From: a virus
DNA: 64,000 nucleotides
IMG/VR virus record: IMGVR_UViG_3300027971_000039
Location: 1 to 64,000 of that record
Direction: 5' to 3' (one strand)
Below, piece after piece: positions 48,108 through 62,539 of this stretch; the stretch's first letter is position 1, and each line of letters begins with the position of its first letter. Made by a program: the position numbers and the translations under genes. Below the pieces are notes generated by a model. The model ran no database searches, was not told where the DNA came from, and saw nothing but the letters and a program-made list of their open reading frames with translations.

Positions 48108-51100
48108 TTAAACTGTGTTAGCTCTAAATTTAATAGTGGCCCCAGAACCTGTGCTTGTTGATGTATATTGTATTTGCCCAGCTGAAGTTATACTAAAAAC
48201 TACACCAGTATCATCGCCAATATAATCTTGGCTCATTTCCCAAGAAGCACCCTTTTGGATGCCTTTTAAAGTATATTCAGCGTAGGTTGAGCTACGTTCA
48301 ACTGTTACAATAGCTTCAAATCCTCTTGTCACGGCATTTGCAAAAACAAAACTGGTTATATTAGCAGCAGATGACTGGTTATCAACTGCTGGGAAAGAAG
48401 TCTGATCAATATCACCGATAGATAGGTTTAATTGAATCCATTGAGATCCGTCATTACCAAAAAACTTATCTAAATCAGTATCATATATAACTAATCCAGA
48501 AAGATTTGTCAAAGCAATTCTTTGTGCAGTCGTCGCCAATCCAACACGAATTGATGTATTAGAACCAATTTCTATTGCAATTTCCGCATTAGATGTTGCT
48601 TTAGAAACTCCACCAATTTTTAATGATTTACCTAGATAGTTTTCTGCTCCGGTATCTTCAATTGAAATACCCCAAGCATTTGTTGCATTAGAACTTAAAA
48701 CGTTAGATCCACCATCTATTCTTAAACCATAAAGATTTGTAATTGAAAGGCTTCCACCAAAATTAGCAACTAATCCTTTATAAAGATGTGCATCTGTAAT
48801 TGTTCCACCTGCACTGGTAGAGTCAATAGCCAACGCAGACAAATTCATCGAAACTTCTTCTACTAACGCCCCAGATGCAGCTGCTACTTGAGACACAAAC
48901 CCTACAGAAACAGCACCTAAACCAACTGTTGTGTTTTTATTGTAGTCGTCGTTAAAGTTCATGAAACCGGCCATGTTATTTAATATAACATCGGTATTGG
49001 TAATCGCTGAACCTGCTTCCACTTCAAAAACCGGTCTAATAACGTTTCCTGAATCAACAAGACTTGGAATATTAGAAACTGTTGTAAATGATACGTTACT
49101 ATTTAAAGTTCCACCATTAATATCAAGACCAACTGGACGGTTTGTAATAGTGGCAGAACTTAAATCAACTTTTAAACCCGTGACATCTGTATATGTTCCA
49201 GTTGGAGCAAATGAAACACCCTCAATTGTTGTTGCATCACCAGAAGGAATTAGCTGCACGCTTCGGATAGTACCAGCATCACCCGTACCATCGTGTCTAA
49301 ACGCAATAGCTTCTCCGGTGCAATCAGAAGATCCACTAGCCAAATAATGAGTTATATTAGTGCCAACTCCGGTATAGCTAGTTTGAGAATTATATGCATT
49401 AAAGTTAGTGGGAGCACTTGTCCCATAACCATACACTTGAATTGGTGTATAATTATCAACTGGTTCATTTATTGGTGAGTTGACTTGAACAGCTGATAAA
49501 TTAACTAAACCTATATTTGAGACAGAGGGACTTATTGATACAGAAATATATTCAGGAACACCAGCTGGAATTGTAAGAGAATTTTGTGCCCCAATTTGAA
49601 GAGAACCAACATCATCAAATGTATATCCTGGAACTTCGGTTAAAATACCAGTAGTTGAATCAAATCCAGCAAAATATGAAGCATTTCCAGTTACAGCCGC
49701 TTCTACTTGACCGACTGTAGCTGCGTCATCAGCAGCAACACCATCTACAACGTTATTAATCTGATGAGTGCCCATGTTAAGAGCACCAGACATTGTACGT
49801 GTACCACTAGCTAATAAGTATTGAATGTGATCATCATTACCCAAACCACTTAATAGACTATGTGTTGTTGCTTCACCAGCAGGAGTATATAACTGAGTTC
49901 CACGGAAATCAACATAATCTCCACCATTAACAGAACGAATCCTAGCTTGAGGATCATTTGTATATCCATCGGCTGTTTGAAATACAACAGTACCTAATGC
50001 AACAAATTCAGCAAACGGCAATCCTGAAAGACTAGTAATTTCGGTGGAAGCAGCGTTTCTTGCGTCTGTGACATTATTATATTGATTAATACCTTGAATA
50101 CCAACTACAGGAGAATCCTTATCATTTGTGGCAAAAAAGTGAACTAGAACATAATCATTGTTTGTAACTTGTGTAAACTGCCAAGAACCACCTGTAAATT
50201 GATTGTAAGGTAGGCGTCCGTTTGCACCTGTATAGCCAGCAGTTCCGCTGTAAATAACAGGGTACGCATCTGCTGGTTTTTTACGCCATAATTGTCCTTG
50301 GCGATATAAAACAGGAATTTGAGCTTGTGGTAAAATCTCAATTAATATATCTTCATCTCTAATTTTACCTTCATCTGCATCAAACTGTGCGTTTGCTGCA
50401 AGATTGCCAGTACCGTCAACGCTAAAGTTTTGTAATGCCAAACCACTTAAATATCTAGCACCAAAAACAGTATGAAGATAAGTGTGGGTAGCACCATCCA
50501 TTGTAAGACCATGACGTTCTTCTGCAAAATAAGAACGGCTATTTGTATCGGTGTTCCAATAAACAATGGAAACTAGTGCATTGTTTTCAAATAATTCTGA
50601 ACCTAATATTTGTGTAGAACTAAGTGTCCCAGAATCATTAAAATAAATATAATGATTACCAGCTAGATTAGGGATTTGGATACTTTGAGTTGTAGTTTTT
50701 GTAAACTTTGCACCCTTTACATAAAAGTCAAACGAAGCTCCAGTAGGAGCAATTGTAAAGGTTCTTGCTGGTGAGGTGTCGCTAAATGAAGTGACAGAAT
50801 CATCTCGATTAGGAAATCCAGTAGGTTCTTTTGTAACTTGATTTTGAGAAACAAATCTATTAGCTAATTGATCTAATCCTTCAATAACATCGTCTGGTGC
50901 TGGTGCCCAGTCGGTAGGATTGGCTGGATTATATTCAATTGTAACAGTTCCAACAATGTCTGTAGTTCCCGCTATCTGACCGATATTAACATCAGGCGAA
51001 TCTAATGTTACAAAACTACCTTGTGCAGTTAAATCACCATCAATTATTACACTATCGTCAAATGTTTTATCACCAGCAAAATTTTGTGATGTAGTAGAAA

Positions 51101-51938
51101 CTACACCAGGATTTGTACTATCAGCTGGCTCAAGATTTAAAACTTGACCAGATAGAGTTGCGCCATCGGCATTGGGAGAAGACCCAACAGCACTCAAAGT
51201 AACTGGATCATGAGAAGATTGATCAATTGTAATACCAGCAGCACCAGCATCAATTGTAGCAACGCCAGCTTGATTAGGTGCTTTTAATTGCCAACTATTG
51301 CGATCTGGAGTAACCTTAACAAATCCAGCAATAGCTAAATTTTCTTCTATTTCAATTCCAGCATCAGAAGCAGAAGCAGCTGCTCCTCCATAATTTATAG
51401 TTATGTTTTTATCTGTTACGTAAAGAATATCACTTTGAACTAAAACAGTCGCACCGGGGGCACCGATGTTAATATTATCAGCAGTCGCGCCGATTGTAAG
51501 GGTATTGGTGGAAGAATCAATTCCACCTTTAGCATCAATTGCCCCTTCTACAATAACGTCATCATTAAATGTTTTATCACCAGCAAAGGTTTGGGCTGAA
51601 GTGGATACAGCACCGGGATTAAGCGCATTTGCTTCATTTAAATTAATTTCTGTTCTAGAAATGTTACCATCTACAACACTAGTTAAACTAAGACCTTCTG
51701 GGCTATCTCCACCAAATGCACCTATTTGAAATCCACTATCAACCCAAAGAGAAGCGTCATCGTACCAAACGTAAACTCTACTAGTGTCTAAAACAATACG
51801 AGCATCACCCGGAGCGTTTCCTACTAATGGCAAGGACGCTTCATCGGCTACAGGAGATTTCCATTGAACAGCACCAGCAGGACCACCTCCGCCCGTTAAA
51901 TCGAAGCCCCCAAAAATCAAAGGATTAAAGCGCATCAT
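48108..51938 (-). CDS. large tail fibre/spike protein
   Basis: 1276 residues, beta-rich with several A-G-D-K-T-F-x-D-D-V/S-V-I modules near the N-terminus typical of phage fibre shafts. Its final 100 residues share a domain with the protein at 58154 (D-Y-I/V-G-D, I-T-S-A-G-Q). Start MMRF overlaps the end of an HNH gene (ATGA). Probably the receptor-binding fibre. Confidence 0.65.
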   Translation of the reverse strand: MMRFNPLIFGGFDLTGGGGPAGAVQWKSPVADEASLPLVGNAPGDARIVLDTSRVYVWYDDASLWVDSGFQIGAFGGDSPEGLSLTSVVDGNISRTEINLNEANALNPGAVSTSAQTFAGDKTFNDDVIVEGAIDAKGGIDSSTNTLTIGATADNINIGAPGATVLVQSDILYVTDKNITINYGGAAASASDAGIEIEENLAIAGFVKVTPDRNSWQLKAPNQAGVATIDAGAAGITIDQSSHDPVTLSAVGSSPNADGATLSGQVLNLEPADSTNPGVVSTTSQNFAGDKTFDDSVIIDGDLTAQGSFVTLDSPDVNIGQIAGTTDIVGTVTIEYNPANPTDWAPAPDDVIEGLDQLANRFVSQNQVTKEPTGFPNRDDSVTSFSDTSPARTFTIAPTGASFDFYVKGAKFTKTTTQSIQIPNLAGNHYIYFNDSGTLSSTQILGSELFENNALVSIVYWNTDTNSRSYFAEERHGLTMDGATHTYLHTVFGARYLSGLALQNFSVDGTGNLAANAQFDADEGKIRDEDILIEILPQAQIPVLYRQGQLWRKKPADAYPVIYSGTAGYTGANGRLPYNQFTGGSWQFTQVTNNDYVLVHFFATNDKDSPVVGIQGINQYNNVTDARNAASTEITSLSGLPFAEFVALGTVVFQTADGYTNDPQARIRSVNGGDYVDFRGTQLYTPAGEATTHSLLSGLGNDDHIQYLLASGTRTMSGALNMGTHQINNVVDGVAADDAATVGQVEAAVTGNASYFAGFDSTTGILTEVPGYTFDDVGSLQIGAQNSLTIPAGVPEYISVSISPSVSNIGLVNLSAVQVNSPINEPVDNYTPIQVYGYGTSAPTNFNAYNSQTSYTGVGTNITHYLASGSSDCTGEAIAFRHDGTGDAGTIRSVQLIPSGDATTIEGVSFAPTGTYTDVTGLKVDLSSATITNRPVGLDINGGTLNSNVSFTTVSNIPSLVDSGNVIRPVFEVEAGSAITNTDVILNNMAGFMNFNDDYNKNTTVGLGAVSVGFVSQVAAASGALVEEVSMNLSALAIDSTSAGGTITDAHLYKGLVANFGGSLSITNLYGLRIDGGSNVLSSNATNAWGISIEDTGAENYLGKSLKIGGVSKATSNAEIAIEIGSNTSIRVGLATTAQRIALTNLSGLVIYDTDLDKFFGNDGSQWIQLNLSIGDIDQTSFPAVDNQSSAANITSFVFANAVTRGFEAIVTVERSSTYAEYTLKGIQKGASWEMSQDYIGDDTGVVFSITSAGQIQYTSTSTGSGATIKFRANTV

Positions 51939-52678
51939 AAAAGTTCCTTCGGAATTTTATTATTTTTTTTAATATTATCAACTGCCCATAATGGTTGTAG
52001 GTTTGTATAGTGGCAGCATTCAAAGAATTTTTCTTCTGATATTTTAATTGCAACGCTTAATGGAAATATATGGTCAATATGCCACTCACCATAGTTTTCC
52101 CAAGACATACCGGGGTAAAATTTATTTTCTATATGAGCTTTAAATGTTTTAAAATCACAGCCCAATTTTTTACTTTTAGATTTTAAATTATTTTTTCTAA
52201 TCATATGTGCAACTCTAGTTCTTGCGTATTTTATTGCTCTAGCACATGGATCTTCTTTTAATCTTTTTTTAATGTATTGTTTTTTCTTTTCTCTTCTTTT
52301 GATTAGTTTTTCTTCTGTGTCTCCGCCTTGCCAATTATTAGCCTGTTCTTTTGTTTTACCCAATTTAGCTAATCTCATTTTTTCTCTAACAACTGGATCT
52401 TTAGCTGGGTTTTCAAACATATTTCTATATTTTAAGCAGTCGGATAATTTTCTTTTTTTAATCTTTTCTTTTTTTGGTCTAGGTGGTTTATTCTTTTCTG
52501 CACAAGATTGACAATTTCCACTATTATTGTCTTTAATTATATTCCAAGCCTGAGCATAAGAAATTTCTCTTTTATTAGAACAAGTCAAACATGTCACAAT
52601 AAAACGAGTTTTACGTTTATTAATAGTGGGGTCTATCGGAGTTACTATATCTTTGTATTTATCCCACAAATTAATCAC
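51935..52678 (-). CDS. free-standing HNH homing endonuclease
   Basis: 247 residues. A Cys4 zinc finger (C-L-T-C at about 30-33 and C-Q-S-C at about 54-57), a basic linker and at the C-terminus W-x-I-D-H-I-F-P-L (HNH), H-Y-T-N-L-Q-P-L-W and N-I-K-K-N-N-K. Such genes spread by cutting DNA at the site lacking them. Inserted between two virion genes and ends overlapping the fibre start. Confidence 0.8.
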   Translation of the reverse strand: MINLWDKYKDIVTPIDPTINKRKTRFIVTCLTCSNKREISYAQAWNIIKDNNSGNCQSCAEKNKPPRPKKEKIKKRKLSDCLKYRNMFENPAKDPVVREKMRLAKLGKTKEQANNWQGGDTEEKLIKRREKKKQYIKKRLKEDPCARAIKYARTRVAHMIRKNNLKSKSKKLGCDFKTFKAHIENKFYPGMSWENYGEWHIDHIFPLSVAIKISEEKFFECCHYTNLQPLWAVDNIKKNNKIPKELL

Positions 52679-58647: not shown

Positions 58648-60075
58648 TTATTTTTTATATACTAGGCGTAGTTTACCACAATCATATACTCGGTATAGAC
58701 CATCTTTTAGAGAGTGTTCATGCTCAGTCATTCCAATTGGAGTATTCACCAACGCCTTTTGTCTAGATTGTTTGGATATAATGATCGCTTTCTTAGAGTC
58801 ATAATAAAAATAATCTGGAGGTAGTATCCCATCTAAAACCCAGCCATTTTTAATCCAAGAAGATCCATTGGACCACCTTAAATCAATCCATGTAATAAGT
58901 TCACTATATTTATTGCTTGCAAATTTAGTTAATTTAGTAATTCCACCAGCAACAGTATAGTTTTCCTTTACACAATACCTACTAATGACATATTCTTTGT
59001 TTTTTCTATGATGCTTTCCGATTGTAATTACAGACAGTAATTCGTCGTTAAAGTATAAACCAATTGCTTCTATAAATGAACACGACCCTAAAATGTGATA
59101 TTGATTTAAAAAATACTTAGCTTCTTTTTTAGGAACTTGTCTTATTTCACATTCCCTTCCGTATATTCTTATTTCATTTTTACCTAATTTAGATCGTAGA
59201 AAGGACTTTACTTGATTGCATTTATTCTTCCATTCAAAATCAAATATATGAATTAAATCCAACCCAGCTTCTTTTGCTATATTTGTTTTATCTAGGTGAT
59301 ATTTAGGATACATTTTTTTATTGTATTCTGAATGCCAAAAAGCACCGTTATATTCAATAGCTATATTATACTCTTTAATTTTTAAATCAATTTGTTTTGG
59401 GTTTTTTCCACCAATAAAAGAAGATTCTGCTGTAATACCAATAGATTCTAGCCATTTTTTTATTTGTAGTTCGCCTTCCGATACAAAGAAATTACCATTT
59501 TGTAATAGTGTATTTAGATATTTTTCTTTTGTTTCTGGTAAAGACGCTGGATTCTCTACTCCATATTTTTTTAAATTCGACTCTTTTAAGCCCAATTTAA
59601 TTTTTTCAGAAAACATGGGATTAGATACACCATGATTTGTAATGGTTGTTGAAATTTGTTTTTTTCTTAATTCTGGACTATGCATGGGGGATTCAACCCC
59701 ATAATTAGACTTTAATGTGTTTTTTGATTTGTTGAGAAACTCTTTATTTTGTAGTGCGTGTTCAACGCCATACTTTTCTTTCATTGTAGAGCGAGCTTTT
59801 TTACGCACTTCTACAGCGGCACCGGCATTAGCAACTCCATATTTTGATAGGTTGGTGGATTCTCTGCGTTTTTTAACAGAGTTCGGATGCGTGCTTGCGT
59901 TTGCTTGTTGTAAAGCCTTAAAAGAAGATACAAATTCACCGAATTCATCATCAATAAAGATCAATTTAGTATCTTTATTATATATATCTAATTGATTTAA
60001 TTTGAGTTTAACTCCATCTGGAGTCCAATATTTACTTTCATTTCTTTTTTGAATTACACCTTTGGGTCTTGCCAT
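58648..60075 (-). CDS. free-standing homing endonuclease (KYGV-repeat type, Vsr/EDxHD-like)
   Basis: 475 residues. Residues about 60-200 carry several K-Y-G-V motifs (K-Y-G-V-A-N-A, K-Y-G-V-E-H-A, N-Y-G-V-E-S-P, K-Y-G-V-E-N-P), a DNA-binding repeat of phage endonucleases. The catalytic core has A-I-E-Y-N-G-A-F-W-H-S, the Vsr-like E-x-N/H pattern, then D-L-I-H-I-F-D-F-E-W. It sits just past the capsid gene's terminator (60126-60162), so it is a mobile insertion in the head/tail region. Confidence 0.75.
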   Translation of the reverse strand: MARPKGVIQKRNESKYWTPDGVKLKLNQLDIYNKDTKLIFIDDEFGEFVSSFKALQQANASTHPNSVKKRRESTNLSKYGVANAGAAVEVRKKARSTMKEKYGVEHALQNKEFLNKSKNTLKSNYGVESPMHSPELRKKQISTTITNHGVSNPMFSEKIKLGLKESNLKKYGVENPASLPETKEKYLNTLLQNGNFFVSEGELQIKKWLESIGITAESSFIGGKNPKQIDLKIKEYNIAIEYNGAFWHSEYNKKMYPKYHLDKTNIAKEAGLDLIHIFDFEWKNKCNQVKSFLRSKLGKNEIRIYGRECEIRQVPKKEAKYFLNQYHILGSCSFIEAIGLYFNDELLSVITIGKHHRKNKEYVISRYCVKENYTVAGGITKLTKFASNKYSELITWIDLRWSNGSSWIKNGWVLDGILPPDYFYYDSKKAIIISKQSRQKALVNTPIGMTEHEHSLKDGLYRVYDCGKLRLVYKK

Positions 60076-60176: not shown

Positions 60177-61192
60177 TTAGCTATTAACAATGTCAGTAAT
60201 AATGGTGTTACGACCGGGAGCCTGACAGAAGAGGGCCTGATCGGTGTAAAGGCGTAGCTCGTAAGCCGCGCTGTTCTCTAGGTCACGGAAGAACTCTTCA
60301 CCTTGACCGGGACGCTTGAAGGTGATATCGGTAGAACCGACGCGCATCCAGTCTTCAACGTTAAGAAGATAAGCATATCCTTGCTTAACATAAAGAGACG
60401 GCTCAATTTCAATCTCACCATTTTGTGAATGGAATTTGAGTGATTTTGATCCGTTTTCCATTTTAGCAGGACTGTAGCTCTGATCATACTTGCGTAGAGC
60501 AGCTTGGTCGGTGAGCATATTCTGCCAAGAACGGACGTTGACTAGAGCAAGAAGTGTACCTTCTTGACCTTTTTCAACGGCACGGGTTGCAGCCTGTCCG
60601 AGTTTGGTAAAGGATAGAGCAGCTGAAGCTGCGCTATAGGTGTTACCACGGAAGAGGTTGTAAGTTCCAACGTCGATGTTGAAGAGTGAACCTGAAGAAA
60701 CGGTTAGAATCTTGTGGATTCCAGCGAATTCGTTTCCGTAAGCCCCTTTGTGCCAAATAATATCACCAGAAGCGATGAGAGCAGCAACAGAAGAGTCACA
60801 GGTAACAGTCTGAGCAGACATGTCTACTGAAAGAACCTTAACAGATGCTTTTAAGGCACCAGTTGAAGGATCGCGAATTTCAATAGGCATTCCTTCTGCC
60901 CCTGCCCAGATACCAGGTGCCCATTCACCGGTTTCAATGGTGATAACTGCACCAAGTGCGGAGTCAACAACAGCATATCCAACCTGACCATAGAGCATTT
61001 CGATTTCGAGCTTCTTGGCCATAGAACGGAGCATGTTTGCCACTAGGAATTTAGTAGCATCCATGAAAGCCTTCTGACCACCGAGAGCAGCACGAGAAGC
61101 AGCGACATAGCCAAGGAGTGAACGGAGAACGGCTGGAGAGCCTTTCACCTGAGCGTCTTTGACTTGTCCTGCGACTGGAGCTTGTAAGTTAA
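60177..61192 (-). CDS. major capsid protein, exon 3
   Basis: Main part of the capsid gene (two bases plus 337 codons and stop). After splicing it continues exon 2 as ...E-D-A-F-N-L-Q-A-P-V-A-G-Q. Contains M-D-A-T-K-F-L-V-A-N-M-L-R-S-M-A-K-K-L-E-I-E and L-L-Y-G-Q-like elements of N4 gp56-type capsid proteins, ending ...D-I-V-N-S. Joined product 415 aa. Read alone, the frame has a misleading GTG start at 61148. Confidence 0.85.
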
Positions 61193-62099
61193 CAAATTCA
61201 AATACTTAATGTATTTGTGTGGGGCTCTTTATCCCCACAGTCCCATATTTCTATGGGATTGGACTATCTTTTTTTCCAAAAACAGCTATAAAATAATTTA
61301 CCATTGATTTATCTAAATTCATTAATTTAGCAATCTTATGTGGCGTATTATTATTGATATGTAAAGAAAGAATTTGTTCTTTCATTTCCATATACTTTTT
61401 TGGAAATCGAGGACTCGTGGAAGGATTATTAACATTTTCAGTCTCACCTTCTAGTCTCTGCGCGTGTCCAGAGATTTCTTCTGAACTTCCGCTCTGATTG
61501 GCATGAGAAAGATATTCAAACTTAAAATTTTTACGAATAACATTATATTTACAACTAGCTAAAATACTACTTCTAGAAATATTTAATTCTTTGCAAGCAT
61601 TTTTAAAAGAACTAAAAACATATACTTCTGATGTAATTGTATTTATCGCTTTCACACCAACAATATGATTTGTCGATTCTTTGTTTAATTTTTTATTTCT
61701 CATTTTTTGTTTTGTTTCGTTGTCAAAAGTGTAATCATTACCACCAGTGGTTAAATTATAACCATTTGGGCGTAATGTATTATAAAATTCAATAAAATAT
61801 TTTTCATAATAATTTAATGAATCTTTATCAAAACAAGAAATAATTTCTTCAAATATAAAGTTATTAAGGCCGTATTTTTTAAAAGCCTTACCCAAAATAC
61901 CAGATTTTGTCCACTTGTGTGCACCCCAACGTAAACGAACATTACGTTTGGTTTGACCAACGTATTGTTGTCCGTTAACTTTGTTAGTGATTAGGTAGAT
62001 TAATCCGTATTTCATTTTATCTTTCTTTTAGCGTTCCAGGTTTTTTCCTCAATTTTCACTATACTGTTACCAGTATAGGGCCCTTAACTTAACAAGTCA
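61193..62099 (-). ncRNA. group I intron 2 in the capsid gene (907 nt, with endonuclease ORF)
   Basis: 5' site: exon end GCCT pairs with internal guide GGGC (62083-62080), giving the required U.G at the splice site. P10: AAGTTAA (62090-62084) pairs with exon 3 start TTAACTT (61192-61186). Core R element C-A-G-A-G-A-C-T-A-G (61460-61451) and S element A-A-G-A-T-A-G-T-C-C (61270-61261) form P7; P5 and P3 pairings are also drawable. P2 CTATACTG/CAGTATAG and three 3' hairpins (P9 type) are present. The intron ends in G61193. Confidence 0.85.
61251..62015 (-). CDS. intron-encoded GIY-YIG homing endonuclease
   Basis: 254 residues starting between P2 and P3 of intron 2. The GIY-YIG module is Y-G-L-I-Y-L-I-T-N ... 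Y-V-G-Q-T (3-20), with R-L-R-W and an E at about 65. The final ~85 residues, including a helix-turn-helix-like K-I-A-K-L-M-N-L-D, are encoded by the ribozyme core itself (P3-P8), so protein and RNA share sequence. It should cut intron-less capsid genes to spread the intron. Confidence 0.88.
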   Translation of the reverse strand: MKYGLIYLITNKVNGQQYVGQTKRNVRLRWGAHKWTKSGILGKAFKKYGLNNFIFEEIISCFDKDSLNYYEKYFIEFYNTLRPNGYNLTTGGNDYTFDNETKQKMRNKKLNKESTNHIVGVKAINTITSEVYVFSSFKNACKELNISRSSILASCKYNVIRKNFKFEYLSHANQSGSSEEISGHAQRLEGETENVNNPSTSPRFPKKYMEMKEQILSLHINNNTPHKIAKLMNLDKSMVNYFIAVFGKKDSPIP

Positions 62100-62142
62100 A
62101 GGCGTCTTCGTCTGATCCGGCAAAAGTCACTCCGTGTTCTAA
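62100..62142 (-). CDS. major capsid protein, exon 2 (43 nt)
   Basis: Fourteen codons plus one base, encoding L-E-H-G-V-T-F-A-G-S-D-E-D-A. Between two introns. The E-H-G-V-T-F-A motif is expected in this capsid family at this place, which confirms the exon. Confidence 0.8.
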
Positions 62143-62350
62143 CATACTGTTATCATTGAGTTTTTCTCAATAGGCTGGTCATTTCTGCCAACCTCTACCG
62201 TTTCATTTTGTTATTTCGGTAGTTCGGACTATCGCATCAACTTTCGTTGCCAACTCGTTTAGTCTCTCACGGTGCTTTCGCTTCCGCCTTGTCACCCTCT
62301 ACAGGGCTTCCAAGTCAATTAGAGTCGGTTTAGGCTCGGCTTAGAAGTTA
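62143..62350 (-). ncRNA. group I intron 1 in the capsid gene (208 nt, no ORF)
   Basis: P1: exon 1 end CTCGGT (62356-62351) with GCCGAG (62340-62335), U.G at the splice site. P10: TTCTAA (62346-62341) with exon 2 start TTAGAA. P3 CCGACTC (62328-62322) with GAGTTGG (62256-62250); P7 from AGAGACTA (62267-62260) and GATAGTCC (62233-62226); P8 CAAC-GAAA-GTTG (62249-62238); P9 CTACCG/CGGTAG and two more 3' hairpins. It ends in G62143. Very compact for the class. Confidence 0.9.
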
Positions 62351-62539
62351 ACCGAGGATAATTGGCTGGTGATATAAATTCCCAGGTTGCTTATCCTTGC
62401 TCATGAACTTGATCTTATTTAGCAACTTAACCCCATCTGGGATTAACTCTGCAAGACGATCGGCATAAGTTTCTTTGAAAAATCCATTCAATGTTCCAAC
62501 GGTATTATTTGGAGTACCGTAAGTATTTGCACTTGCCAT
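62351..62539 (-). CDS. major capsid protein, exon 1
   Basis: 63 codons from ATG 62539 (GGAAA upstream), ending ...Y-H-Q-P-I-I-L-G. Without splicing it would stop at TAA 62350-62348, giving an abnormally short product. N-terminal arm of the capsid fold, with F-F-K-E-T-Y-A-D. Confidence 0.85.

Follow-up and report, generated by a model that had tools for sequence, protein, structure and literature searches.

The window analysed here (64,000 nt, positions 1 to 64,000 of the IMG/VR record IMGVR_UViG_3300027971_000039, an 85.8-kb virus contig) contains on its minus strand a major capsid protein (MCP) gene, at 62539-60177, that is divided into three exons by two insertions. Exon 1 (62351-62539; 189 nt) comprises codons 1-63, its terminal 6 nt (CUCGGU) providing the exon strand of the intron 1 P1. 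Exon 2 (62100-62142; 43 nt) extends from codon 64 to position 1 of codon 78, with the first 6 nt used in P10 of intron 1 and the last 4 nt in P1 of intron 2, and exon 3 (60177-61192; 1016 nt) provides the remainder of codon 78 and everything up to the stop of a 415-aa protein. The exons (189 + 43 + 1016 nt) add up to 1248 nt, or 415 codons plus the stop, in a single minus-strand frame; the same three-exon join had been put forward in the original prediction, whose coordinates, lengths and frame turned out to be exact. The exons are separated by intron 1 (62143-62350, minus strand; 208 nt), which has no ORF and is inserted at CDS nt 189 in phase 0, and intron 2 (61193-62099, minus strand; 907 nt), which is inserted at CDS nt 232 in phase 1 and contains a 254-aa ORF (61251-62015, minus strand) for a putative GIY-YIG homing endonuclease. 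The clues to a host amount to three matches in binned genomes (MAGs of Betaproteobacteria, Proteobacteria and Bacteroidales) and a 30% match in a Silvanigrella phage, and for this reason we claim no host for this phage.

A PHROG search with the joined 415-aa protein returned phrog_14242 ('major head protein', E 4.7e-11) over almost the full length; a Pfam search of the same protein gave no match. The AlphaFold model (mean pLDDT 76) of an intron-less relative, L035, which is 78% identical to the window capsid, matched HK97-fold capsids and encapsulins in a fold search (best E 1.8e-7, probability 1.0). The original prediction had assigned the gene to the major capsid protein and suggested a search of the joined product against capsid families; both the PHROG match and the fold of the L035 model bear this assignment out, identifying the product as an HK97-fold major capsid protein by homology and by model.

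At the protein level, 30 intron-less relatives (58-78% identical) are colinear with this product across both joins (...ILG/LEHGVTFA.SDEDA[F]NL...), and the empty sites were compared at the DNA level in six intron-less relatives. The gene model had been staked on agreement with intron-less relatives at the joins, which is what these 30 display; as a comparison of sequences, their colinearity is independent proof of the joins. In addition, an IMG/VR contig (L061) is 100% identical to the window over 2121 nt, which include intron 1 and the beginning of intron 2, and three relatives (L033, L037 and L039) carry introns at the window's two sites (189 and 232) plus a third.

Structure of the two introns

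In intron 1, the IGS GCCGAG (62340-62335, minus strand as are all elements below) pairs with the exon sequence CUCGGU in a P1 of 6 bp ending in U.G, and the P10 strand UUCUAA (62346-62341) pairs with UUAGAA (6 bp). P3 is formed by 62328-62322/62256-62250, P7 by 62264-62260/62231-62227, omega-G is at 62143, and the first intron codon is an in-frame UAA. The unforced minimum-energy fold consists of P1, P3, P4, P5, P6, P8 and P9 (z -5.08). Among 12 ORF-less introns of the intron 1 class, found at several sites, 96.7% of cells are paired in the pseudoknotted P3-P9 structure including P7; double changes occur at 29 of 41 pairs, a level reached in none of 500 shuffles, and P7 itself appears as GACUA/UAGUC, GACUG/CAGUC and GACUU/AAGUC. 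This covariation indicates that the ribozyme structure of the class is under selection.

A covariance model (R1) made from eight ORF-less introns, with the window intron and its 92%-identical copies left out, detects intron 1 at 107.8 bits (E 3.5e-23). Across the 85.8-kb record intron 1 is the sole match of R1, and no match was obtained in five intron-less relatives. Rfam (RF00028 at gathering score) gave no match to intron 1, and the general Rfam model also misses the class of ORF-less relatives that R1 detects. The core of intron 1 matches public phages exactly in the gaps of split genes, namely those of RNR (Roseobacter phage CRP-118) and dUTPase (crAss-like phage cr50_1). In the CRP-118 locus (L131), R1 detects (85.5 bits) a group I intron that is missing from the annotation; it lies between gp44 and gp45, both of which are annotated as ribonucleotide reductase. 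Overall, P1, P10, the P3-P9 pseudoknot, the P7 covariation and the R1 match identify intron 1 as a group I intron.

Intron 2 has the IGS GGGC (62083-62080), which pairs with GCCU in a P1 of just 4 bp ending in U.G, and a P10 of 8 bp (strand 62091-62084); P7 (61456-61452/61266-61262) is GACUA/UAGUC, omega-G is at 61193, and an in-frame UAA is found 8 nt inside the intron. In P3, AAUUGAGG pairs with CCUCGAUU, and the helix covaries, forming with changed letters in 17 of 17 introns of this class; P7 of the class is GCAUA/UAUGC in three relatives, as against the GACUA/UAGUC of the window. The 3' end folds into three hairpins (z -6.65), and an unforced fold of the P1 region favours a competing hairpin. 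A low-threshold region scan with the Rfam group I model scored intron 2 at 22.3 bits (E 0.0044), below the gathering score of 50; at gathering score, the single Rfam match over the window is a tRNA. Since the low-threshold scan does find part of intron 2, the silence of Rfam was not counted against the introns. The structural evidence places intron 2 among the group I introns, in a subclass other than that of intron 1, and because of this difference the two are most likely separate acquisitions. The ORF of intron 2 matches PF01541 (GIY-YIG; E 5.6e-11, 43 bits against a cut-off of 22.6) and phrog_314 (E 9.6e-29), and its 3' end extends over P7 and P9 of the ribozyme core, as is known for such introns (T4 td/I-TevI, PMC3073962).

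The original prediction had described a P1 ending in U.G and a perfect P10 at both introns, and the pairings (6+6 bp for intron 1, 4+8 bp for intron 2) are as it stated. When 200,000 U^/G^ site pairs were drawn at random from the window, P1 and P10 together reached 12 bp or more in 275 of them (~0.14% each), before allowing for the freedom that the prediction had in choosing sites. A scripted check of 36 introns, from 13 of the 18 sites described below, showed P1 to be 3 bp or longer, mostly 4-10 bp, in all 36. The splice-site finder rewarded an exon U and an intron G, and these alone are therefore not independent evidence; P1, P3, P7 and early stops went unrewarded. Counting one representative intron for each of the 18 sites in relatives, an in-frame stop lies at most 9 nt from the intron start at 18 of 18 sites, compared with 11 of 36 in the other two frames (p 3.6e-7). 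An early in-frame stop is present in most group I introns and bars ribosomes from the ribozyme (PMC3073962).

That the insertions are other splicing elements (group II introns, or inteins translated in frame) appears exceedingly improbable. Such a reading could appeal to intron 1 being uncalled by Rfam; on the other hand, the insertions are marked as group I by their P1/P10 guides, by P3-P9 with P7 and by omega-G, no group II match was obtained in Rfam, and inteins are ruled out by the in-frame stops that begin each insertion. The earlier assignment of both insertions to group I introns stands, on P1, P3-P9 and P10 together with covariation that includes P7 in the intron 1 class and P3 in the intron 2 class.

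The predicted products are 63 aa when intron 1 is retained, 80 aa when intron 2 is retained and 78 aa when exon 2 is skipped, so that full splicing alone yields a capsid protein. The first two lengths, at which unspliced translation ends, would be in keeping with a capsid gene that is broken, or with an assembly chimera, in which the insertions stay in. We regard this as very unlikely: the exon codons are intact and colinear with those of the 30 intron-less relatives, both introns are shared at both sites by L033, L037 and L039, contig L061 matches intron 1 and the beginning of intron 2 without a difference, the ribozyme structure is under selection, and the capsid protein is indispensable to a tailed phage. 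Partial or predominant skipping of exon 2, giving two products by alternative splicing, has real precedents, in that a short exon flanked by two group I introns in tandem is skipped in Twort orf142 (an exon of 23 nt) and in Coxiella 23S rRNA (34 nt) (PMC10136302), as well as in a phage terminase (PMC11878797). Here, however, loss of the 43-nt exon shifts the frame (hence the 78-aa product), and the two introns differ in subclass and guides; we rate such skipping as unlikely and favour full splicing to the 415-codon message.

Introns in related capsid genes

Two scans yielded 82 distinct capsid relatives, 25 of which carry introns. A splice-aware alignment placed these at 18 insertion points (CDS nt 63, 73, 102, 147, 159, 164, 166, 171, 177, 179, 185, 189, 201, 203, 232, 239, 258 and 278), all of them within 216 nt (nt 63-278 of the ~1.25-kb gene), and the remaining three quarters of the gene aligns without a break in every locus. 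Candidate introns before CDS nt 35 in the DP alignment proved to be artefacts of divergent N-termini and were dropped by starting at codon 16. An intron-bearing gene has from one to four introns, and the shortest internal exons measure 12 nt (L126:5870-6925), 13 nt (L110:5175-6999), 14 nt (L067:4978-6927) and 16 nt (L103). Exons of 12, 13 and 14 nt are about as short as they can be if they are to supply P10 of the preceding intron and P1 of the following one. Since internal exons of 12-30 nt and as many as four introns per gene occur in the relatives, the 43-nt exon of the window is ordinary for this group, and the rarity that the original prediction had seen in two introns 43 nt apart does not hold; a shorter exon has also been published (Twort orf142, 23 nt).

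The insertion points fall at strongly conserved codons (mean flanking entropy 0.445 versus 0.906 for random sites, 0/5000), and their flanking entropy is also below that of random sites inside the hotspot region. As a rule, group I introns are known to favour conserved sites (PMC2814812). Conservation alone was rejected as the cause of the clustering, because two stretches that equal the hotspot in conservation (codons 127-147 and 379-399) are intron-free in 82 of 82 capsids. Judged from the aligned genes, the 216-nt stretch is a hotspot that introns have entered at 18 sites in related phages.

The two nearest relatives have capsids 98% and 97% identical to that of the window (91% at the DNA level over the conserved tail) and intron sets of 147+177+201 and 63+171, as against 189+232 in the window; the next relative (82% at the DNA level) has an intron at 201 only. 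A tree of 81 capsids requires a minimum of seven changes (gains and losses taken together) at site 171, six each at 189 and 201, and four at 232. The site 201 intron occurs with and without an ORF (847 vs 256 nt), and proteins of the LAGLIDADG, GIY-YIG and NUMOD3 types are all represented. The presence of different intron sets in near-identical capsids fits repeated homing into a conserved target.

We lean towards the view that this constitutes a previously unreported intron mosaic, in which one phage group has at least 18 group I sites in 216 nt, at most four of them occupied at once, with non-overlapping sets in near-identical phages and with exons of 12-16 nt that are wholly consumed by P10 and the next P1, and in which such consumption should force the order of splicing. 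In the open-licence literature we found no description of such a hotspot, with 18 sites in a single phage capsid gene.

Proposed mechanism and known systems

We consider it very likely that two separately acquired group I introns of different subclasses interrupt the HK97-fold MCP gene and would self-splice to give a 415-codon message, intron 2 being most likely a homing element. From the joins, the predicted structures and the covariation we infer that each intron would fold in the pre-mRNA, its guide pairing with the end of the 5' exon (P1, with U.G) and with the start of the 3' exon (P10), and would then excise itself through two transesterifications, leaving the 415-codon message; the in-frame stops just past each 5' splice site would exclude ribosomes from the ribozymes. 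In mixed infections, the GIY-YIG enzyme of intron 2 would most likely cleave intron-less capsid alleles, close to nt 232, and repair after this cleavage would spread intron 2. For the ORF-less intron 1, located 43 nt away, the most likely means of movement is co-conversion with intron 2 or the help of a separate endonuclease.

A candidate mobility helper is encoded immediately after the capsid gene, on its downstream side, by a free-standing, homing-endonuclease-like gene (58648-60075, minus strand; DUF7487, E 9.2e-33; phrog_3339, E 3e-93), which recurs in ~20 loci (37-97% identity) and is present in several but not all relatives. The aid of a free-standing nuclease to an ORF-less intron has been termed 'collaborative homing' (PMC3984707). 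Elsewhere in the window, an endonuclease VII-like ORF (51935-52678, minus strand; phrog_1035) with a GTG start, the end of which overlaps the start of a 1276-aa gene (48108-51938), is probably another mobile nuclease.

For a gene of this kind gene finders yield fragments of 63 aa and 323 aa plus an endonuclease, not one capsid protein, and capsid searches consequently lose such phages. Intron turnover can also be studied in this capsid family as a natural experiment, in which capsids 97-98% identical to that of the window have intron sets that differ completely from its own. The family offers the same intron with and without an endonuclease, one stretch on which endonucleases of three classes converge, and, in the relatives, exons short enough for testing how tandem ribozymes share guide pairings.

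The window gene belongs to a known kind, given the precedents of orf142 of Staphylococcus phage Twort, a tail tube gene with three group I introns and a 23-nt exon (PMC10136302, PMC11878797), and of the zeta crAss-like phage OLRF01000054, whose major capsid gene is in five fragments (PMC7886860). Twort orf142 shares with it the presence of several group I introns in one structural gene and a very short internal exon; it encodes, however, a tail tube rather than a capsid protein, and the introns that flank its exon are mutually similar, with exon skipping seen, whereas those of the window are of different subclasses. OLRF01000054 belongs to another phage group, and its description comes without a site map, exon sizes or allelic comparison. 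Splicing in large numbers is supported by metatranscriptomes in Jug phages (PMC12363816). The mycobacteriophage LittleE likewise has an endonuclease-bearing group I intron in its major capsid gene (PMC3706429), but there the intron is single, the endonuclease is of the HNH type, and splicing was demonstrated by RT-PCR, while that of the window gene is predicted. With phage T4 td/I-TevI (PMC3073962) intron 2 shares a GIY-YIG ORF that extends into the intron core and an in-frame stop soon past the 5' splice site, although the host gene is another one and the likeness of the endonucleases is at the domain level only. In the fungal mitochondrial cox1 hotspot (PMC2814812), many group I introns similarly occupy many sites in conserved parts of one gene; cox1, however, is an organelle gene with sites spread along its length, whereas the phage capsid sites all lie in 216 nt.
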